A stretch of DNA of 24,951 bases from a virus: the IMG/VR virus record IMGVR_UViG_3300028114_000095, positions 1 through 24,951 of that record; one strand, written 5' to 3'. A program made the translations under genes and the position numbers. A model generated the notes under the pieces. That model had not been told where the DNA came from. It made no database searches and saw only the letters and a program-made list of their open reading frames with translations. Below are positions 15,475 to 23,665 of the stretch, one piece after another (within the stretch, counting starts at the first letter, position 1; every line of letters begins with the position of its first letter).

Positions 15475-15508
15475 TTTAAAAAGAAAAACACGCTCAAACA
15501 GAACGTGT
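15475..15508 (-). terminator. Intrinsic terminator of the oxygenase cassette
   Basis: ACACGTTC and GAGCGTGT pair in an 8-bp stem (one G-U) with a 5-base loop, followed by TTTTTCTTTTT on the minus strand. It lies about 58 nt downstream of the last oxygenase stop (15566) and separates the cassette from nrdJ. Confidence 0.9.
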
Positions 15509-15565: not shown

Positions 15566-16198
15566 TTAGTTTGTTTTATTTACCCAATGTGTAGTATACA
15601 TATACTTTACTCCAGATAGCACTGGTTTTGATTCATGGATGTACGGCTGTTGAGATGGGAACATCACTAGGCTGCCTGCTTTAGGCTTAATGGTAACATT
15701 TTGATTTGGAAAGCTAATCTCTCCGCCTTCATAATCATCATTTAGATACACAACAAAAGAATATCTAAGATTAGAGTCTCCGTCTTGACCATCATAGTGG
15801 TGCCCCATACCTTTTCCAGAGTCATACCTGTTTAAAGATATATAGTTTAGATCTAGATTAATTTCAGATTGATCAATTTTGTTAAACTTGCAAAAATTAA
15901 TAGCGCACATCTCTGGTGCCATAAGCAAGCTGTTTATTATATAAAGAGTATTTTTATCTAATAAATCATCTCCAGTAGATTTTTTTAAATTAGAAACATT
16001 GATAAACTTTTTTTGACCATACATGGTTGACATATCGTTACTAGAATACCATGGCTCCCATTTTGGTATTCTTATATGAGATTTTTCGTCTAAATCTATC
16101 GTGTTTGTTAAATCCAATAGTTCTGTTTCGTAGCTAATAACATTTTCAAAGTAATAGATGCCATCTTGAACACTTTTTAAATCAAACATAGTGTACAT
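15566..16198 (-). CDS. 2OG-Fe(II) dioxygenase, prolyl-4-hydroxylase-like (fifth of cassette)
   Basis: 210 aa. A double-stranded beta-helix oxygenase with iron ligands H134-x-D136 and H188 and a basic residue K198 positioned for 2-oxoglutarate. The family blocks are clear: VYLNDDYEGGEISFP (150-164), KPKAGSLVMFPS (171-182), and a distal block around HESKPVLSG. Such enzymes couple 2-oxoglutarate decarboxylation to hydroxylation of a protein side chain or small molecule; the substrate here is unknown. The ATG follows the upstream stop directly, with AAGGTGAT encoded in the end of the upstream gene as ribosome site. It is the last gene before the terminator. Confidence 0.9.
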   Translation of the reverse strand: MYTMFDLKSVQDGIYYFENVISYETELLDLTNTIDLDEKSHIRIPKWEPWYSSNDMSTMYGQKKFINVSNLKKSTGDDLLDKNTLYIINSLLMAPEMCAINFCKFNKIDQSEINLDLNYISLNRYDSGKGMGHHYDGQDGDSNLRYSFVVYLNDDYEGGEISFPNQNVTIKPKAGSLVMFPSQQPYIHESKPVLSGVKYMYTTHWVNKTN

Positions 16199-16957
16199 TT
16201 ATTTATCACCTTCTACATCTTTTGCTGGATATTTAGACCCATCAGACTTTATTCGTAAACCATCTTGTCTTATTTCTTCCCACTGTTTTTGTTCTTCTTT
16301 TTGATATGCCCTCACCTTAGCAAGCTCTTCTGCCCAAGCATCTCTAACTTCTTGTGGATAATCTGACTCTTCTCTATCATCCCAGAATGAACCTAGAGTG
16401 TATCTGATTGATTTCTTAACTGTTGTAACCTCATGCATATTCTCAAAGCCTCCAGCAAACGTGGCAAGTTTTCCAGCTTGTGGAATTATTGTTAAACCAT
16501 TCTTAAAGTTTAAAACACCATCTTCAAAGTCATCATTGAGATAAATAAATGTTGCATATCTGCTTCTAGTAAATGCTCCAGAATGTCCGTCATTATCAGT
16601 ATTATCTGAATGCATATTTGCAAATGCTCCTGGAGCCCATCGTTGAGAGTGCCAGCTTATCTGTGACATTTGTTCAGGATTTTTATCAGCCATATCTGCT
16701 GTTGCATTAATCACCCTTTGTCTTAAAACCTGAAAAAAGTCTCCTGGAAGTCCACAAGCAATTGTATCTGGGTCATTTACTTCTGGCATTCCAGATGAGT
16801 ATGACTCATAAAAAGAAATTGGCATCCATGATAGTTCGCCCTTTTCCATCTTTATGTCTAACACCTTTATGATAGACTCACATTCTTCTTTAGTAAGAAA
16901 GTTTTCATAAGTTACAATGTCTGATTTATGTCTTGTTATAATCATATCTCTTTCCAT
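16199..16957 (-). CDS. 2OG-Fe(II) dioxygenase, prolyl-4-hydroxylase-like (fourth of cassette)
   Basis: 252 aa. The N-terminal IVTYENFLTKEECESII is the usual start of phage oxygenases of this type. Iron ligands are H116-x-D118 and H175, with R185 for 2-oxoglutarate. The block YLNDDFEDGVLNF (139-151) shows the conserved loop. A charged helical extension of ~55 residues (WAEELAKVRAYQKEEQKQWE and on) follows the catalytic domain and is absent from the paralogues; it may bind a partner. The start overlaps the upstream stop as TAATG, with AAAGGAGA about nine bases before it. MII at codon 5 is an alternative start. Confidence 0.9.
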   Translation of the reverse strand: MERDMIITRHKSDIVTYENFLTKEECESIIKVLDIKMEKGELSWMPISFYESYSSGMPEVNDPDTIACGLPGDFFQVLRQRVINATADMADKNPEQMSQISWHSQRWAPGAFANMHSDNTDNDGHSGAFTRSRYATFIYLNDDFEDGVLNFKNGLTIIPQAGKLATFAGGFENMHEVTTVKKSIRYTLGSFWDDREESDYPQEVRDAWAEELAKVRAYQKEEQKQWEEIRQDGLRIKSDGSKYPAKDVEGDK

Positions 16958-17772
16958 TATTTCTTATCTCCTTTTATGTTGGGCAATTCATCATACAAGA
17001 CTGGTTTTCCATTTTGTAAATATCTCATATTTTTTGGATCTTCGTACTTAATTCTTTCAGCTTCCATTTGAGCCCATTTGTATGCACCAAAAGTTTTTTG
17101 ATTGTTTAGCCATTCTTTAGTTCCATCAAATGGAATCATGACAAAATTTCTTACAAAAAATTTTTCATTCTTTTCAATAGTTTTTACACCATGATAATAT
17201 GGCTCTGTAGATGGAAACACCAGTATGTCTCCAGCGACTGGCTTATGATTAATGAGTTTATCGTCTATAAAGAATTCAATGTCTCCACCATCATAATCAT
17301 CATTTATATACATTGTGCATGTTATAAAAAACTTCTCTCCAGGCATATCTTTTTGAGAGGTTATGTGATCTGTATGATACTGCATAGTCATTTTATTATT
17401 CATTAGATCAAGTGAAGGATTATACTTGGAATAAGAACATCCACTAAACCTCCACCCATCTGGCAGATTTATACCCTGTCTTTCTACATAATCTAAAATT
17501 ACCTTATTGTATGCATCTTCTACTTCATCAACAAATGCTTTTTCTTTTATGAACATTTCTTCATCTGTCTGCTCTGATGTAATTTCACGCATATCTTTCT
17601 TTTGAGTGTATGTACCAAAGTGTGCCCATGGATCCCATGTTTTTAAGAAATACTTTCCCTGTGATGTTTTTTCTGACTCACTCATTACCTTATACATTTG
17701 CTCAGGGCTTTTTAATACATTTCTGTATACGTCTACTTTTGGGTAAATCTCTACATATTCTAGTTTGCTCAT
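16957..17772 (-). CDS. 2OG-Fe(II) dioxygenase (third of cassette, divergent)
   Basis: 271 aa from ATG 17772, chosen for the ATGA overlap with the upstream stop and the AGGAGA ribosome site; a longer frame from 17808 lies wholly inside the upstream gene. Iron ligands are H133-x-D135 and H194, with R208. The block MYINDDYDGGDIEFF and the HKPVAGDILVFPS segment are family hallmarks. It is the most divergent of the five: the sugar/peptide-facing N-terminal part is long (about 130 residues before the HxD) and contains KTWDPWAHFGTYTQKKDM. The C-terminal ~60 residues are helical and basic/acidic. The substrate is unknown. Confidence 0.9.
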   Translation of the reverse strand: MSKLEYVEIYPKVDVYRNVLKSPEQMYKVMSESEKTSQGKYFLKTWDPWAHFGTYTQKKDMREITSEQTDEEMFIKEKAFVDEVEDAYNKVILDYVERQGINLPDGWRFSGCSYSKYNPSLDLMNNKMTMQYHTDHITSQKDMPGEKFFITCTMYINDDYDGGDIEFFIDDKLINHKPVAGDILVFPSTEPYYHGVKTIEKNEKFFVRNFVMIPFDGTKEWLNNQKTFGAYKWAQMEAERIKYEDPKNMRYLQNGKPVLYDELPNIKGDKK

Positions 17773-18446
17773 GGTTGTCTTTCTCCTGTATGTTTCATTA
17801 TAGTCCAAAAAAATGGTGATGTAAATCTATGTCCAGATTTTACTGGTCTTACGCCGTGAACATAATACCTATCTCCTGGGAAAAAGTATGCTGCTCCAGC
17901 TTTTGGTTTGAACTCAATACCTTGAAGTGGAAAATAAAGCTCACCACCTTCATATTCGTCATTAAAATAAAATAAAGATGCTATGTCATAATGTGGAAAA
18001 TCGTTTGGTCTTCCACGCTCTTCTCCAATATGAAATTCTTTATCTGCATGAGGTTCTTGTCTTGCACCTACTGGCCAACGAACAATAGCTGGACCAGTTT
18101 CACGAACATCAACCTGAAAAAATTTATCTACCTCTATTTTAAGCCTTCTAATCATATCTTGAATTAAGTCTAAAATAGAAGGATCTGACTTCATTAAAGA
18201 AAAATATGTTGCCACTCTATTAGCCCAAATGTTTGCATCATACAAAACAAGACCATCTTCATCTTTGTGACTTTCAGTAATATCCCAAACTTTATTGTTC
18301 ATTGCAAAATCTGATAATCTTTTTCTTTCTTCTAGTGTTAAAAAATTTTCTAATTCTACAATATTGTCCATAGAATTACCAAAAAATCCAGACGGCGTTG
18401 CTGACACTGGAGCGCCAACCAAGTGGTTTTTATTTGTTATTTCCAT
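17769..18446 (-). CDS. 2OG-Fe(II) dioxygenase, prolyl-4-hydroxylase-like (second of cassette)
   Basis: 225 aa, starting at ATG 18446 with GGGAGG six bases upstream. It begins with a short Gly/Pro/Ser lead, then IVELENFLTLEERKRL. Iron ligands are H133-x-D135 and H197, with R207 for 2-oxoglutarate. Family blocks: FYFNDEYEGGELYFP (159-173), FKPKAGAAYFFPGD (179-192) and VHGVRPVKSGHRFTS. The ligand region REPHADKEF-like (ARQEPHADKEFH) matches phage enzymes whose substrates are unknown. It is the first gene after a 67-nt gap holding a possible promoter, and is joined to the next oxygenase by an ATGA overlap. Confidence 0.9.
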   Translation of the reverse strand: MEITNKNHLVGAPVSATPSGFFGNSMDNIVELENFLTLEERKRLSDFAMNNKVWDITESHKDEDGLVLYDANIWANRVATYFSLMKSDPSILDLIQDMIRRLKIEVDKFFQVDVRETGPAIVRWPVGARQEPHADKEFHIGEERGRPNDFPHYDIASLFYFNDEYEGGELYFPLQGIEFKPKAGAAYFFPGDRYYVHGVRPVKSGHRFTSPFFWTIMKHTGERQP

Positions 18447-18484
18447 ATCTTACCTCCCTAATACATGCGACTATTTATATATCT

Positions 18485-18493
18485 ATTCTACCA
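18485..18493 (-). promoter_or_regulatory. Possible extended -10 promoter inside oxygenase cassette
   Basis: TGG followed by TAGAAT, about 38 nt before ATG 18446. The same TGGTAGAAT lies upstream of the first oxygenase (19910-19918), so the two may be co-regulated. TAGAAT is a weaker hexamer than TATAAT. Confidence 0.4.
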
Positions 18494-18513
18494 TTTTTAT
18501 ATAAAATAAAAAT
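18493..18513. repeat. Perfect 8-bp inverted repeat beside the -10
   Basis: ATTTTTAT and ATAAAAAT separated by five bases, lying exactly between the DUF6065 stop (18514) and the -10 at 18485-18493. It is wholly A/T, so a terminator role is unlikely; an operator is possible. Confidence 0.4.
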
Positions 18514-19215
18514 CTATTTATTTTCAACAACCTTTAGCCTAATTGACTTTACTTCATGTGATCCTATGCTTTTTCCATCTGGGTCTACAGAATCTCTATA
18601 AAAATTAGACCACTTACCCTGTTTATTTAGCTCATAAACTATGCTGGAATAGTCAAAATCATTAAAATGGTCTGTTGGTAAATCCTTGATAGACTTAACT
18701 ACCATTTCAGAATTATTAATGTTTCCCAAAGATATTGGCAAAATAGATATCACAGGAGTTCCTGCTTTAATTGTAATTTCTACATTTGGCCTAGTTATTC
18801 TCCATGCACATGGCAACTCCCCCTTATAAAAGGAAGTACTTATGAGAGTTGTAAATGGTTGAATACCATCAATAAATTGATTGGGAACTGGCATCTGCAA
18901 TATGCTTGTATTTTGATCAGTTCTAAACATCAGTCCAGTATTAAAACTAATTGTGGCATTTGATCTTCCAGTAGAAACATATTCATTGCCAGACAATACC
19001 CTTACATGGTCTGGACTAGTGTCTGATATTCCGTCCCAAATAAAAGTGATGTCTTCTGGAAAAGATATTCCCCATCCAAGACCGTTAGTTAGGGTAACTG
19101 GAAAACACTTGTATGCGTGGGCATCCCATGTTTCATCCATCCATTCTCTTTTAATAGAAAGAGGATCTAGTTTCCCATATCCCTCTCTAAGTTCATAAAC
19201 ATCTATTGTGTACAT
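18514..19215 (-). CDS. DUF6065 family protein
   Basis: 233 aa. The pattern matches DUF6065 as I know it: EWMDETWDAHAYKCFPVTLT and NGLGWGI (24-50), then a FNTGLMFRT block (91-99), PVPNQFIDGIQPF (109-121), a region ending in WRITRP (138-143), and IKAGTPVISILPI (149-161). The function of the family is not known; the sheet-rich pattern is compatible with a beta-barrel fold but no metal triad is evident. It sits between the first and second oxygenases, with its ATG overlapping the upstream stop as TAATG, so it is co-translated with the oxygenases and probably acts in the same process. Full length by comparison with the family (~230-250 aa). Confidence 0.75.
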   Translation of the reverse strand: MYTIDVYELREGYGKLDPLSIKREWMDETWDAHAYKCFPVTLTNGLGWGISFPEDITFIWDGISDTSPDHVRVLSGNEYVSTGRSNATISFNTGLMFRTDQNTSILQMPVPNQFIDGIQPFTTLISTSFYKGELPCAWRITRPNVEITIKAGTPVISILPISLGNINNSEMVVKSIKDLPTDHFNDFDYSSIVYELNKQGKWSNFYRDSVDPDGKSIGSHEVKSIRLKVVENK

Positions 19216-19868
19216 TATGGATTTAGTCTTTTTTGAATCAATGACTGATATTCTATATTGTGAGTATTATCATTATAATCTAACATAGTTACAATAGAAT
19301 ATTTTAATCCACTAGTTACTGGCATTGCTCTATGTGAGAATAAATATGTTGATGGGAATATGTATAAATCTCCAGCCTTGGGCTTTATGTTAACATTAAG
19401 CTTTGGAAAAAACAACTCTCCACCCTCATAGTCATCATTGGGGTAAGCAACTAATGAAACTGTTGCTATATATGAAAAACCATGGTCTGCATGTTCTTGA
19501 AAATGTTGTCCTGGGCCATATTTAATAAAATTCATTGCTTCCCAATATTCCATTTTAATGTTGTACATTGTGCAATAATCAGTTACGGCATTAATCTGTG
19601 CGTTATAGGCATCCTGCCAAATATTATTTAGTTCAACATCTTGAGGACCAATACTTGGATTTGTGTTTTTTTGAATTTTAAAGTCTAGGCAATCCCTATA
19701 TTCTGGAAATTTTTGTTGATAGCCAACCATTGCCTCTTGCCATGACTGTTGCGGATTTTTTTTAATAAAATCTTCAACTCTTTCTATTATGTTTAAATCT
19801 TTTTTAATTACATCTCTATAAACAAATATGCCAGGAAATATTTCTTCTTTATTTAAGAAAGATTGCAT
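19215..19868 (-). CDS. 2OG-Fe(II) dioxygenase, prolyl-4-hydroxylase-like (first of cassette)
   Basis: 217 aa. Iron ligands are H126-x-D128 and H179, with K189 as probable 2-oxoglutarate anchor. Family blocks: KYGPGQHFQEHADHG (116-130), AYPNDDYEGGELFFP (141-155), IKPKAGDLYIFPS (161-173) and HRAMPVTSGLKYSIVT. The KYGPGQxFxxHxD context is that of canonical prolyl-4-hydroxylase-like phage enzymes. A ribosome site AGGGG lies about eleven bases before ATG 19868. It is the first oxygenase in the direction of transcription and is followed by the DUF6065 gene with a TAATG overlap. Confidence 0.91.
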   Translation of the reverse strand: MQSFLNKEEIFPGIFVYRDVIKKDLNIIERVEDFIKKNPQQSWQEAMVGYQQKFPEYRDCLDFKIQKNTNPSIGPQDVELNNIWQDAYNAQINAVTDYCTMYNIKMEYWEAMNFIKYGPGQHFQEHADHGFSYIATVSLVAYPNDDYEGGELFFPKLNVNIKPKAGDLYIFPSTYLFSHRAMPVTSGLKYSIVTMLDYNDNTHNIEYQSLIQKRLNP

Positions 19869-19909
19869 TTTTATTTTACCCCTATCTATGTATATAATCT
19901 ATATATGTA

Positions 19910-19918
19910 ATTCTACCA
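19910..19918 (-). promoter_or_regulatory. Possible extended -10 promoter for oxygenase cassette
   Basis: TGG followed by TAGAAT, overlapping the stop codon of the zinc-ribbon gene and about 42 nt before ATG 19868. It is identical in nine bases to the element at 18485-18493. Confidence 0.4.
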
Positions 19919-20152
19919 CTTTTTCAGTGGGCATGTTGCAATTTCTATTTTTGCTTTTACTTTCATAAAACATCCACATTTTTTGCACTGGTGAGTTAGT
20001 TTTATTAATTCTGGGCAAGCCTCACATATGCTTAGCCTATGCTCTAGCTTTTCTTGACTTACATGTTCTATTTTTGGATTTAATATATCCCAGGGTCTTG
20101 CTTCTCCTAGGTTTTGCTTATATCTTTCCCAAGGAGTTAAGCTATCAGTCAT
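19913..20152 (-). CDS. Small zinc-ribbon protein
   Basis: 79 aa. Six cysteines in the second half, C43xxC46, C56xxC59xC61 and C74, form a probable zinc ribbon ending in the motif ATCPLKKW. The N-terminus has SLTPWERYKQNLGEARPWD. Small proteins with RLxxCxxCP ... CxxCGC ... CPxxKW occur, as I recall, in cyanophages and other aquatic phages near tail-fibre or oxygenase genes; the function is unknown. The start at ATG 20152 overlaps the upstream gene by 8 nt and has no strong ribosome site, so it is probably coupled. It could be a metal or RNA/protein-binding accessory. Confidence 0.8.
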   Translation of the reverse strand: MTDSLTPWERYKQNLGEARPWDILNPKIEHVSQEKLEHRLSICEACPELIKLTHQCKKCGCFMKVKAKIEIATCPLKKW

Positions 20153-20384
20153 CTACAATATCAAATCTATAATTGTTAACTATTGCTTCTGCAATATATT
20201 CTGGAACACCTAGTTTTAGCTGATCTTCACCATTAAGTTTATAATTTATGTGAAAATTCTTACCAGAATTGCTTGGCTTTATTTGATACTCTATATTGCT
20301 TTCTAAATTTTCAAAAAATGTTATTAAAACACTATCTTTTGTAGAAAACAATATATTTTCATCTTTATATACGTTCATTATCAT
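20145..20384 (-). CDS. Small protein of unknown function
   Basis: 79 aa, not recognised. It is mixed alpha/beta: an N-terminal strand-rich part (NVYKDENILFSTKDSVLITF), then IEYQIKPSN, a HINYKLNG strand and a C-terminal helix (PEYIAEAIVNNY) with an acidic end. There is no ribosome site; ATG 20384 follows TGGTATAAT by six bases, predicting a leaderless mRNA and arguing strongly that this is a real first gene of a unit. It overlaps the zinc-ribbon gene by 8 nt. MNV at codon 3 is an alternative start. Confidence 0.72.
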   Translation of the reverse strand: MIMNVYKDENILFSTKDSVLITFFENLESNIEYQIKPSNSGKNFHINYKLNGEDQLKLGVPEYIAEAIVNNYRFDIVDD

Positions 20385-20404: not shown

Positions 20405-21238
20405 CTAGTCGTCACACCAAAAGTCGCATGGGCCACAGCCATATTCACATGGTCCGTACAGGCAGCAGATGCCGCATACTTGGCATCCAAATGAAGGTGG
20501 GAAGAACGGTGGTGAGAAAAAGCTTGGTGGGAAGAACGGTGGGAAGAACGGTGGGAAGAACGGTGGGAAGAACGGTGGTGAGAAAAAGCTTGGTGCTAAA
20601 GTTGTTACGTTATTTGAAGCGGGAGATGCAAGTGAATTTCCGTTGCCATTTGTTGCTACTACGGTATATGTCTGTGATGTTCCTGCAGTATCAGCAATTA
20701 CAATTGGAGATGAGGCTCCTGTACCAGTTGTTGCATCGCTTCCAGTAACTGTATATCCAGTGATTGCCTTACCGCCATTTGCTGGTGCAGTAAAAGCAAC
20801 AGAGTTTTGATTAACCTGGGCAGTTGCTGTTGGAGCTGACATTGTTGCTGGAACAGTTGTAGCTGTTACAGAAGATGATGTTGCTGAAACAGAAGATCCT
20901 GAAGCATTAGTTCCTACTACTGTAAACGTATAACTTGTTGCTGATGCTAGTCCTTGAAAAGTATAAGTTGTACCTGAAGTTCCAGTATTAACAGTATATG
21001 TTGATGGGGTTGTAGTAATTGTATAAGAAGTGGCTGCTGGAGATCCTGCTGGAAGTGTCCAAGAAAGATTTACAGATGCTCCAGTTCCAGCAGCAGAAGC
21101 TGCAGAAGTTGTATTGGCTGTAGCTAAGTATGGTCTACTTGTACCAACATCAGTAGCTGTTAATGAAGTTACCTGAGATGGTACTAGAAAGTCATTTGAT
21201 GCTTGGGACTTCTTGCCTATCTTCTTACCTGCTGCCAT
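20405..21238 (-). CDS. Fibre-associated protein: two FN3-like domains, PPFF repeat, Cys-rich end
   Basis: 277 aa. The order is: a basic N-terminus (1-12); two fibronectin-III-like beta-sandwich domains (about 20-130 and 131-215, with SYTITTTPSTYTV, LASATSYTFTVVGTNASG and ITGYTVTGS as typical strands); a Pro/Phe repeat with PPFF units (216-250); and a C-terminal segment with eight cysteines in 24 residues (252-275), including CQVC, CGIC and CGPC. FN3-like domains in phages usually sit on tail or capsid surfaces and bind carbohydrate or cell envelope. The start at ATG 21238 has AAAGGGG about nine bases before it. It follows the large fibre gene by 21 nt. The exact role is unknown; a fibre tip or adhesin is likely. 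Confidence 0.75.
   Translation of the reverse strand: MAAGKKIGKKSQASNDFLVPSQVTSLTATDVGTSRPYLATANTTSAASAAGTGASVNLSWTLPAGSPAATSYTITTTPSTYTVNTGTSGTTYTFQGLASATSYTFTVVGTNASGSSVSATSSSVTATTVPATMSAPTATAQVNQNSVAFTAPANGGKAITGYTVTGSDATTGTGASSPIVIADTAGTSQTYTVVATNGNGNSLASPASNNVTTLAPSFFSPPFFPPFFPPFFPPFFPPSFFSPPFFPPSFGCQVCGICCLYGPCEYGCGPCDFWCDD
20496..20591. repeat. 12-bp tandem repeats encoding PPFF
   Basis: The unit GGTGGGAAGAAC (plus strand) occurs once at 20496-20507 and four times in tandem at 20526-20573. Each block is followed by an identical 18-bp element (20508-20525 and 20574-20591). On the minus strand the 12-bp unit encodes Pro-Pro-Phe-Phe in frame. The units are exact copies, so copy number can change by multiples of four residues without a frameshift. 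Confidence 0.95.
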
Positions 21239-21259: not shown

Positions 21260-23665
21260 TTACGCTGTCAAGTCGCCGAAGACAACCCATGTATTTGCTG
21301 CTCTCTTAAAGAGAGTTGCAGATGACCAAGTTGTACGAAGTTTTAAGCCTGGTGTTGCATTTACTGTTGTAGTTCCAGGTGTTACTGCTGCAATTGTTAC
21401 CTGACCTGTTCCAGTTTGAAGAATATCAATAGATGTTCCGATTGGATAATTTAGTGTAGCATCTGTAGGAATTGAAAGAGTAATCGCTGAAGATGATGAC
21501 ATTTCAATTAAATCATCTCTTTCAGTTAGTTCTGAAAGTGTATATGATGCTGTCTTCTGAATAATTGGTGTACGTGAAGGAACACCTTCTGTTGTCTGTG
21601 TTCCATCTGAGAAAGCAACTCCTGAAAGTGAAGGAGTGGCAACTACAGAAACTTCATTTCCGCTTACAGAAATATTTGTGCCTGCTGTAATTGTTCCTGA
21701 TCCTGAGAATTGATAAACATCAATGTTGTCTGTTCCTACAACAAATGTTGTTGGATCGGCTACTACTTGAATCCATCCAGTTCCAGCGTTTGTTCCATCT
21801 TGAACAAAGATATATGCTCCTGGAATTTCTGATGCTTCATCGCAATATCCACAGCGAGTAAGTACATAAGGAGTAGAGGCAGATCCCATGTTTGAAATAA
21901 AATATCTACCATTTTGAGCCTTGTTAGTTTGGTTCTTTACAAGAATACCCTTGCCAACAGCCCATCCACTTGCTCCACCTGCTTCTGCAGGAAATGCACC
22001 GTTCGTGTTGTGTGTAAGTGTTGCTCCAACGCCTGCTGTTCCATTGCTATATGTAGCGTCAATGTTTGCTGTTGTTGCTCCAAGTACCTGTGGCTTTGCA
22101 ATAATTCCAGATGCTGTGTTATCAACATACTGCTTAGTTGCTGCGTGTAACGATGATGATGGATCGGCGTGAAGCGTTATAGCGCCAGTAAATGTTGCTC
22201 CTGATAGGTTTGCCTTTAGATCAAGTGCTGTTTGTGTTGCAGTTGAAACTGGCTTGTCTGCATCTGAAGTATTATTAACACTTCCAAGTCCTACATCTGA
22301 ACTTGTAATTCCAGTAGGTGTGTTGATGACTGGAGAGGTTAAAGTTTTATTTGTAAGAGTTTCAGTCTTAGAGGCAGTTGATTTATCATCTAATTGTGTT
22401 TGAATGGAAGAAGTAACACCATCAAGGTATCCAATTTCAGTATCAGAAACATTTGCAACAACTGCTTGCTTATTATTTAGCTGAGTTTGAATTGCAGAAG
22501 TTACGCCATTAACATAACCTATTTCTATTGAAGAAACATCGCCTATTGAGGTTGTTGATGGAAGAACTACGTCTCCAGTAAATGATGGTGAAGCAAGAGG
22601 TGCTTTATCAGTAATCTGAGTTTGAATAGCTGAGGTTACTCCAGTTAGATAGTTAATTTGTGTTGCAGTTACAGTAACACCAGATATGTTTGAAGGAGCA
22701 ATAGAAATAGTATTGTCTGAACTAGAGATAGTTTTATTGCTTAATGTTTCACTGAATGCTCCTAAATTAACTCCATTTATCTTGTAAGACTTTCCAGAAG
22801 GAAGGTTTAGGCTTTCTGATGAAGACCATGTATCAGATGAGTCATTGTATGAAAAAGTTTTATCTGTAGTGCCCTTAACAGTTATTCCACCACCGCTTGC
22901 TGTTATATTTGTTGGAAACTCTGTTGCTGCTAAAATTATATTTTTATCTGTAATAACAAGTTCATTAGATACTAAATATGTTGTAGCTCCATTTACTGTA
23001 AGATTACCAGAAACTGCAAGGTTTCCACTGCCATCAGATAGAACCAATGTTCCTGTTGCATCAGGGAATGTAATTGTTCTATCTGCTGTAGGGTTTGTTA
23101 CTGTAAGAGTAGTTTCGTGAGCATCTGCAGACGAACCTTCAAAGATTATAGATGAATCATTAAATGTAGCTCCAGTAATTGTCGGGCTAGTTAATGTTTT
23201 ATTTGTAAGGGTCTGTACTCCATCATTGGTTGTTACAGTTGAATCAATATTAAATTGATCAGTAGAAGCATTCCAGTCAAGTCCAGTACCTGCTGCAGAA
23301 GCTGAATCAAAAGTTGCATTAGCTGCTGCTGAATCTACATATTCTTGTGTGGCAATCGTTCCTGTTGAATCTGGAAGAGTTAAAATTCTATCAGCAGTTG
23401 GATCTGTAACCTGAACTGTCGTCTCAAAAGCATTCGCAGTTGCACCTTCAAAAACAATGCTTGAGCCAAATGCTGGGTTTACTGTTGAGTTAGCATCAAT
23501 GAAGTAATCAAGGTTGATCCAGTGATTTGTTCCATCACCAATTTTAAATTTATTTGTGTCGGTTTCAAATCCGATTTCACCAGCATTGAGGATAGGACCG
23601 TTGCCAGAGTTTGTAGAAACCCATTGAGCTGCAGTTCCTCTGCGCTGTTGCATTCTTGTTGCCAT
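21260..23665 (-). CDS. Large tail fibre protein
   Basis: 801 aa, start at ATG 23665 with GAGGAG eight bases upstream. The N-terminus (RRGTAAQW, then LNAGEIGFETDTNKFKIGDG) is the beta-hub seen at the head of many phage fibres. The body is repeat-rich: TLTNKTLTSP blocks; three copies of a GYxxGVTSxIQTQLxxK segment (about residues 330-425); an ATKQYVD coiled-coil element; and a domain around 570-630 (GRYFISN, VLTRCGYCDEASEIPGAYIF, GTGWIQVV) common in siphovirus fibres. The C-terminus is a sheet (SYTLSELTERDDLIEM, then FKRAANTWVVFGDL). It trimerises and binds the host surface; the receptor is unknown. The middle domain is also found in the partial gene at the right edge, so the two fibres are paralogous. 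Confidence 0.88.
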   Translation of the reverse strand: MATRMQQRRGTAAQWVSTNSGNGPILNAGEIGFETDTNKFKIGDGTNHWINLDYFIDANSTVNPAFGSSIVFEGATANAFETTVQVTDPTADRILTLPDSTGTIATQEYVDSAAANATFDSASAAGTGLDWNASTDQFNIDSTVTTNDGVQTLTNKTLTSPTITGATFNDSSIIFEGSSADAHETTLTVTNPTADRTITFPDATGTLVLSDGSGNLAVSGNLTVNGATTYLVSNELVITDKNIILAATEFPTNITASGGGITVKGTTDKTFSYNDSSDTWSSSESLNLPSGKSYKINGVNLGAFSETLSNKTISSSDNTISIAPSNISGVTVTATQINYLTGVTSAIQTQITDKAPLASPSFTGDVVLPSTTSIGDVSSIEIGYVNGVTSAIQTQLNNKQAVVANVSDTEIGYLDGVTSSIQTQLDDKSTASKTETLTNKTLTSPVINTPTGITSSDVGLGSVNNTSDADKPVSTATQTALDLKANLSGATFTGAITLHADPSSSLHAATKQYVDNTASGIIAKPQVLGATTANIDATYSNGTAGVGATLTHNTNGAFPAEAGGASGWAVGKGILVKNQTNKAQNGRYFISNMGSASTPYVLTRCGYCDEASEIPGAYIFVQDGTNAGTGWIQVVADPTTFVVGTDNIDVYQFSGSGTITAGTNISVSGNEVSVVATPSLSGVAFSDGTQTTEGVPSRTPIIQKTASYTLSELTERDDLIEMSSSSAITLSIPTDATLNYPIGTSIDILQTGTGQVTIAAVTPGTTTVNATPGLKLRTTWSSATLFKRAANTWVVFGDLTA

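Follow-up and report, generated by a model that had tools for sequence, protein, structure and literature searches.

The stretch of viral DNA examined here (the window: the whole of the 24,951-base virus record IMGVR_UViG_3300028114_000095, positions 1-24,951) holds a cassette of genes for five 2-oxoglutarate (2OG)-Fe(II) oxygenases, OX1 to OX5, and for a protein of the DUF6065 family. Just upstream lies a gene for an fn3-domain protein that ends in an array of paired prolines and phenylalanines. The cassette is probably a phage prolyl-hydroxylation system dedicated to one virion protein, with the array as its substrate. The reading draws on gene anatomy, on predicted folds and above all on co-occurrence: in related phages the enzyme set goes specifically with Pro-Pro arrays. 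The features on which the argument turns are these.

15566..16198, minus strand: OX1, 2OG-Fe(II) oxygenase, 210 residues (PF13640, 56.5 bits; profile near 3dkq and 5c5t)
16199..16957, minus strand: OX2, 2OG-Fe(II) oxygenase with C-terminal extension, 252 residues (PF13640, 32.3 bits)
16957..17772, minus strand: OX3, 2OG-Fe(II) oxygenase with C-terminal extension (PF13640, 35.3 bits)
17769..18446, minus strand: OX4, 2OG-Fe(II) oxygenase, 225 residues (PF13640, 36.2 bits)
18514..19215, minus strand: DUF6065 protein, 233 residues, predicted dUTPase-like fold (PF19541, 109.3 bits against a cut-off of 26.6; model with predicted local distance difference test, pLDDT, of 92.8)
19215..19868, minus strand: OX5, 2OG-Fe(II) oxygenase, 217 residues, TAATG-coupled to DUF6065 (PF13640, 50.1 bits; model pLDDT 91.5)
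20405..21238, minus strand: tail-associated fn3-domain protein with C-terminal Pro-Pro array, proposed substrate (fn3, 41.8 bits; co-occurrence tests)
20489-20587, minus strand: the array, FFSPP(FFPP)4SFFSPPFFPPSF (ends placed by residue count)
20526-20578: tandem repeat with a 12-bp unit, inside the array
20408-20488, minus strand: Cys-rich tail after the array, eight Cys, the C-terminus of the fn3 protein
21260..23665, minus strand: tail fibre gene, directly upstream of the fn3-array gene (PHROG tail fiber and minor tail matches)

The order OX5-DUF6065-OX4-OX3-OX2-OX1 is found again in many IMG/VR contigs, which excludes a chance origin of the cassette; the recurring order begins further upstream, with tail fibre gene and fn3-array gene preceding OX5. 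A first-pass annotation of the window had counted five intact oxygenases with a conserved basic residue, and this is borne out: all five score above the PF13640 cut-off, H-x-D and the distal H of the iron triad are present in the aligned columns of each, and a basic residue follows ten positions past the distal H (K, R, K, R, K). It had ended the cassette at position 20384, however, and thereby missed the neighbour whose Pro-Pro array tracks it.

Arrays and oxygenases in related phages

Proline-rich repeats are a typical substrate of peptide prolyl hydroxylases, and the co-occurrence of array and enzymes was tested for that reason. In a sample anchored on DUF6065 (the best 80 of 173 IMG/VR relatives), every stretch contains at least one oxygenase (80/80), and 55 also contain an FFPP-type array. 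The association of DUF6065 with oxygenases, named beforehand as half of the test of the first-pass view that they form one system, thus holds at every locus of the sample. Where a cassette is accompanied by at least 2.5 kb of upstream sequence, an array lies within 3 kb upstream in 38/40.

The converse sample was anchored on the array. A DNA pattern for FFPPFFPP, run on IMG/VR, gave at least 120 stretches, 117 of them with the match in frame; a control pattern for PEPEPEPE gave 120 stretches, 106 in frame. Oxygenases were detected with a profile made from open reading frames (ORFs) of the DUF6065-anchored sample. Among the matches listed, 86/117 FFPPFFPP stretches contain an oxygenase and 63/117 contain DUF6065; the control yields 0/106 for oxygenase. 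Likewise among the matches listed, a same-strand oxygenase lies within 3 kb downstream of the FFPPFFPP array in 61/73 cases and within 3 kb upstream in 2/48 (0/62 and 0/57 for the control), and when identical arrays are removed and 5 kb of downstream sequence is present, an oxygenase is found in 35/40. PF13640 is absent from the whole records of 40 of the 120 controls (0/40). For 20 of the 31 array loci with no oxygenase in the stretch, whole records were searched with Pfam's own model; it matches in 18, in 17 of them over the cut-off. The carriers of the arrays vary: besides fn3 and other N-terminal parts there is PASTA, which scores over the cut-off in L049 but under it in L147 and L155. Clustered at 50% identity, the N-terminal parts from 102 of the 121 array ORFs fall into 20 groups; the largest has 66 members, and 12/20 include a stretch with an oxygenase. 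Because these parts are so diverse, the link between array and enzymes is not the property of one lineage only.

The sharpest comparison keeps the protein and changes the array. Homologues of the fn3-array protein were fetched with the fn3 part alone (the best 80 of 582). Among the 73 with 3 kb of downstream sequence, 69 have both an array and an oxygenase within 3 kb and four have neither, with no discordant case. (Over whole stretches, two without an array have an oxygenase further off, and one with an array has none in the 227 bp of downstream sequence examined.) Two aromatic-repeat proteins were added as queries; the 169 loci obtained, less 49 duplicates and 12 with under 3 kb, leave 108. 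A Pro-Pro array was defined as one with two or more Pro-Pro (L439, with two, is therefore in this class) and the other class as arrays with none or, in L504 and L521, a single one. An oxygenase lies within 3 kb downstream of 81/82 fn3 homologues with a Pro-Pro array versus 6/26 with another array (Fisher p 1.5e-15, kinship ignored). For two or more oxygenases within 5 kb downstream the counts are 70/71 versus 0/26, and for DUF6065 over the same distance they are again 70/71 versus 0/26. The Pro-Pro-poor genes occupy a similar site, with a tail fibre gene before the fn3 gene(s) in 26/26 and ribonucleotide reductase downstream in 16/26 stretches. Since the enzyme set tracks paired prolines and is absent without them, the repeat is probably the enzymes' target. 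On a tree of the fn3 part made by a quick method, array state changes four times; four independent pairs are, on average, concordant in 3.7 and opposite in 0.

The arrays that replace Pro-Pro arrays in these homologues are aromatic repeats such as FGFTPFGAFGF, YSFTPYSFVP and FYNYSN; tail-region examples with FGFTPF, FGAFGAF or FYNYSN repeats include L504:5992-6711, L514:5995-6837, L520 and L558, among others.

The same comparison bears on which residue would be modified. The array could be the substrate and Phe, Tyr or His next to Pro the residue hydroxylated: the arrays are as Phe-rich as they are Pro-rich, and 12/26 of the homologues without Pro-Pro arrays do have a single oxygenase within 5 kb. 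But the cassette tracks Pro-Pro, Phe-rich arrays without Pro-Pro lack it, and the fold is that of a prolyl hydroxylase, so that we regard this variant as extremely improbable. We infer that proline is the modified residue.

A further sample was drawn regardless of array or enzyme, as 80 relatives of the window's portal gene (78-98% identical). Whole records were searched because most of the portal stretches stop short of the array's place. Twenty contigs of at least 22 kb were used, four DUF6065-anchored records being left uncounted; a run of matches was scored as an array and an isolated match as none. Ten contigs have both array and oxygenase, nine neither, one the array only and none the oxygenase only (Fisher p 1.2e-4 for n=20; p 0.048 when limited to the 10 that reach 45 kb). 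One of the nine, L224, may be misfiled: the contig is a 24-kb fragment, and a weak match to the oxygenases lies at its edge. The portal tree shows four independent pairs in which array and oxygenase change together, and none in which they change in opposite directions. Streptomyces phage Daubenski, a cultured portal relative, has neither an array nor a PF13640 match.

Several observations weigh against the proposal that the array is the substrate. Oxygenases occur without arrays: in one clade with DUF6065 and oxygenases no array was found, either in L028 and L030, which are among the 40 cassettes with upstream sequence, or in five records searched (one with an isolated match); the portal stretches taken alone give 9/80 with an oxygenase and 0/80 with an array; an FFPP array is present in 0/8 named oxygenase-bearing phages (three have one isolated match to a loose pattern); and the homologues without Pro-Pro arrays have one oxygenase within 3 kb in 6/26 and within 5 kb in 12/26. 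(These 12 single enzymes have 161-190 residues, are weakly like OX4 or OX1 and, in six cases, follow ribonucleotide reductase.) Arrays also occur without oxygenases, in 2/20 of the whole records searched, in the 56-kb portal relative G063 and in L605, a Pro-Pro homologue. Kinship inflates the p-values, and the two independent-pairs tests, with four pairs each and p 0.125 each, are below the reach of significance. Enzyme number does not follow array complexity, and AlkB, a nucleic acid enzyme, comes close behind the prolyl hydroxylases in the fold score of OX5 (Z 15.4). Finally, the cassette lies next to the array, at a median distance of 515 bp in the array-anchored sample, and the two could travel as a block with no functional tie between them.

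That last point is the core of another reading, in which array gene and cassette are linked passengers: a tail locus prone to recombination exchanges them together, and the enzymes have some other target in the cell. Tail loci do recombine often, and the oxygenases of array-less phages and of the array-less DUF6065 clade would fit. The tie persists, however, on unrelated N-terminal carriers, as well as in G009, where array and oxygenase are ~13 kb apart, and it depends on Pro-Pro: at a similar site, arrays with fewer than two Pro-Pro are without the cassette in 26/26. Linked passage is on these grounds unlikely to be the explanation.

The enzymes and DUF6065

The closest solved relatives of the enzymes are peptide prolyl hydroxylases, for OX5 by predicted model and profile and for OX1 by profile. 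The profiles of both match prolyl 4-hydroxylases in the PDB; OX1 scores slightly better with a PKHD-type hydroxylase (3dkq, E 2.5e-9) than with a prolyl 4-hydroxylase (5c5t, E 4.4e-9). The top Foldseek match of the OX5 model is the PBCV-1 prolyl hydroxylase (E 6e-10), others among the best being an algal prolyl 4-hydroxylase (P4H), a Dictyostelium prolyl hydroxylase (PHD) and a Bacillus P4H. VIA puts the algal enzyme with bound (Ser-Pro)5 first (3gze; Z 17.5, root-mean-square deviation (rmsd) 2.7 over 171 residues) and HIF-type and Pseudomonas prolyl hydroxylases next (Z 16-17).

Two other uses of the enzymes have to be set against these matches. One is as a translation aid: the oxygenases would modify a translation factor or ribosomal protein of the host, in the way that known prolyl hydroxylases act on EF-Tu or ribosomal proteins, and so allow translation of long Pro-Pro arrays. 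Ribosome stalling at Pro-Pro is established, the Pseudomonas P4H-EF-Tu complex (4iw3, Z 16.7) is among the best structural matches of OX5, and Pro-Pro dependence would be accounted for. It is nevertheless hard to see why a single factor should need five or more distinct enzymes, and bacteria already possess EF-P for Pro-Pro; we consider this reading improbable. The other is DNA modification or repair in the manner of AlkB or TET, or a draw-down of 2OG as proposed for cyanophages. The AlkB match to OX5 speaks for it, as does PMC3037559, which proposes that cyanophage members repair DNA or modulate 2OG. Yet prolyl hydroxylases outscore AlkB by profile and fold, and no dependence on Pro-Pro arrays is predicted, which makes this use highly improbable.

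More enzymes do not go with more elaborate arrays. The first-pass annotation had suggested that the paralogues act on different substrates or in ordered steps; in a test that bears only indirectly on the former, arrays with more Pro-Pro contexts are not accompanied by more oxygenases (rho -0.30). Dosage or array complexity as a determinant was likewise discarded: across 56 distinct arrays, the oxygenases within 8 kb downstream do not increase with Pro-Pro units or contexts. Arrays with single-Pro steps (FFP followed by a residue other than P) had more oxygenases (rho 0.57, lineage and multiple comparisons ignored); since this figure is uncorrected for lineage and for the several comparisons made, nothing is built on it. 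In 20 loci a further oxygenase, of the PF05118 aspartyl/asparaginyl beta-hydroxylase type, lies between the array gene and OX5 (L026:4567-5175 was tested), and a glutathione peroxidase gene is found near one cassette (L173:10802-11449).

DUF6065 is predicted to have a dUTPase fold. Its model resembles dUTPases most closely (E 3e-5 by Foldseek; by VIA Z 10.8, with an rmsd of 5.1 over 122 residues and a tied row at 2.8 over 116). The catalytic Asp of dUTPase motif 3 would fall at residue 126 of DUF6065; in this column, placed by eye, S or P is found in 46/51 sequences and S, P or N in 50/51, T also occurring. Because the Asp thus appears replaced, hydrolysis of dUTP is unlikely, and DUF6065 is provisionally taken here as a non-dUTPase. 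A trimeric state and a scaffold role are suggested by the predicted fold.

A tblastn search of 50,697 named phage records (E up to 1e-3) gave no match to DUF6065, and a literature search found no paper naming it. A scan of bacteria with exact peptide patterns of the window's DUF6065, which reaches close relatives only, gave one match, L406. This sequence is filed in a Chitinophagaceae metagenome-assembled genome, reads as phage (gene names assigned by eye) in the order tail fibre, fn3-FFPP, two oxygenases, DUF6065, OX4, and is likely mis-binned. A group of DUF6065 loci is array-less in the stretches examined and carries several oxygenases (L028-L030, L032, L033, L051-L054, L056, L065, L074, L075, L078-L080 and L085). 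A second family, weakly DUF6065-like, lies between the array and the last oxygenase in 58 loci; in one it is placed between DUF6065 and OX4 (L069:10680-11438), and a look-alike of it, judged by eye, occurs with no oxygenase in the stretch examined (L216:6609-7373).

The proposed mechanism can be put as follows. In the infected cell, the five oxygenases would work as peptide prolyl hydroxylases, their targets being prolines in the FFPP and FFxPPx units of the Pro-Pro array. This array lies at the C-terminal end of the fn3-domain protein, whose gene precedes the cassette and adjoins the tail fibre gene. With its predicted dUTPase fold, DUF6065 would assist them without being an enzyme itself, probably as a scaffold of three subunits. 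Once hydroxylated, the array would be stiffer, in the form of a polyproline-II rod; its Phe-Pro chain, in itself very hydrophobic, would become soluble; and the added hydroxyl groups could be modified further, as they are in extensins or collagen. All five enzymes may be needed for this. The modified protein would be carried on the virion. Its gene lies in the tail module, adjoining the tail fibre gene in the window, and in diverse loci 8/10 of the genes upstream of array proteins match tail or virion PHROGs.

A more ambitious version, doubtful as a whole, likens the product to extensin or mussel adhesive: at the tip of their tail fibres, or as a coat on them, these phages would carry a multiply hydroxylated polymer of aromatic residues and hydroxyproline. 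Five to ten oxygenases would install 4-hydroxyproline, 3-hydroxyproline and perhaps dihydroxyproline or hydroxylated Phe, while the dUTPase-fold pseudoenzyme would keep three chains in register during modification. The arrangement would be modular, the tail protein swapping a Pro-Pro array with its cassette for a Pro-Pro-poor aromatic array without one.

Gene joints and neighbours

Further features of the region are listed here.

15488..15508, minus strand: terminator-like hairpin 3' of OX1 (eight pairs, four of them G-C, then a T-run)
18447..18513, minus strand: 67-bp gap between DUF6065 and OX4 (read from the sequence)
19913..20152, minus strand: DUF6171 zinc-ribbon protein, 79 residues, six Cys, a neighbour outside the cassette core (PF19668, 32.7 bits; cut-off 27)
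20145..20384, minus strand: second 79-residue protein, a neighbour outside the cassette core (no family match)

The genes had been described as tightly joined throughout, which is accurate for four joints: OX2/OX1 abut, OX3/OX2 and OX5/DUF6065 share TAATG, and OX4/OX3 overlap by ATGA. It fails for two: DUF6065 and OX4 are 67 bp apart, and the zinc-ribbon gene and OX5 are 44 bp apart. Because of the former gap (inside which a promoter scan gave no match), DUF6065 is translationally coupled to OX5 only, and not, as had been thought, to all the oxygenases. OX3 most likely starts at the ATG at 17772, which overlaps the OX4 stop, rather than at the TTG at 17808 preferred by the ORF tool. The strong terminator that had been said to close the cassette survives as one well-placed hairpin (15508-15488); the region as a whole has three terminator-like sites, no excess over shuffled sequence (mean 2.7).

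The zinc-ribbon and second 79-residue genes, earlier counted as cassette members, adjoin the cassette together only in the close relatives L006-L008; the zinc ribbon alone does so in L011 and L012. Elsewhere in the 80 loci these genes are mostly upstream of tail fibre genes, and in L058 such a neighbour lies beside another oxygenase-like ORF. Neither Pfam (E up to 1) nor PHROGs (E up to 0.1) has a match for the second 79-residue protein. For a gene that lies between array and cassette in some loci, a sulfotransferase guess was dropped, as Pfam and PDB offered no support. All the long ORFs identified in the window (tail, portal, protease, head, ribonucleotide reductase) are on the minus strand. 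The top named matches of the portal are Streptomyces phages (46-47%), so an actinobacterial host is possible.

Two features of the arrays themselves may be added. In three loci (L035:6730-8055, L045:7940-9283 and L013:6776-8062) the array is followed by a weak Intein_splicing/Hint domain, below the Pfam cut-off, and self-processing after the array through this intein-like domain is possible. Codon use in the window's array is skewed: Phe is TTC in 12/15 codons versus 60/298 in the other genes counted, and Pro is CCG in 5/14 versus 6/277. The TTC bias recurs in the FFPP units of the array-anchored loci (1918/2204); repeat homogenisation or avoidance of T-runs is a possible cause.

Known systems and meaning

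Viral prolyl hydroxylation is, as a kind, already known, since it has been reported from a chlorovirus: by its title, a 1999 study by Eriksson is said to describe 4-hydroxyproline in viral proteins and peptide substrates. The PBCV-1 prolyl 4-hydroxylase (vCPH, 5c5t) resembles the window's enzymes as a virus-encoded peptide prolyl hydroxylase and as the top Foldseek match of OX5. It belongs to an algal virus, whereas the window's phage pairs five or more paralogues with DUF6065 and with a dedicated array protein encoded alongside. The algal enzyme Cr-P4H heads the VIA matches of OX5, and the Pro-Pro and aromatic repeats resemble plant extensins; the hydroxyproline-rich proteins of the extensin type differ in being eukaryotic, made in the secretory pathway and glycosylated. 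Collagen modification likewise pairs a repeat protein with prolyl and lysyl hydroxylases, and the mimivirus lysyl hydroxylase 6ax7 matches OX5 structurally, but the window's array is not Gly-X-Y. Collagen as the substrate was rejected: among the matches listed, Gly-X-Y proteins occur in 10/120 array-anchored loci, and they occur in 1/80 DUF6065-anchored loci (examples are L181, L049:15959-17107, L097 and L199). By its title, PMC3368898 concerns prophage-borne collagen-like proteins of E. coli. DUF6065 shares its predicted fold with the trimeric dUTPase family and differs in the apparent replacement of the motif-3 Asp, in the column placed by eye.

The nearest phage relatives are the 2OG-Fe(II) oxygenases of cyanophages and pelagiphages (PHROG 61), similar as a broad family with several non-orthologous copies per genome. 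According to PMC9599517, pelagiphages carry eight non-orthologous 2OG genes, often beside ferrochelatase; these differ from the cassette in lying near one another but not adjacent. What aquatic phages do with such enzymes is, in the parts of PMC9301287, PMC9599517 and PMC3037559 consulted, called cryptic or guessed to be DNA repair or 2OG control, the first giving their viral use as unknown and the last suggesting 2OG control and DNA repair for those of cyanophages. EGLN3 is the commonest human structural match of phage proteins (PMC12774648). That named phages carry oxygenases without the array implies that 2OG oxygenases have other uses as well. The titles and abstract beginnings of the PMC-licensed literature searched contain nothing on measured hydroxyproline or FFPP repeats in phage proteins, and no precedent was found there for a phage system that combines many enzymes with DUF6065 and a dedicated Pro-Pro array.

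The analysis provides a specific, short substrate candidate for the 2OG-Fe(II) oxygenases of many uncultured phages, together with natural negative controls: a homologous protein with a Pro-Pro-poor array and no cassette. DUF6065 gains a predicted fold and a genomic context. The chemistry of hydroxyproline-rich structural proteins is familiar mainly from eukaryotes and their large viruses. If the proposal is true, phages make such proteins too, and FFPP-type arrays with their enzymes could be a compact route to hydroxyproline polymers in bacteria.

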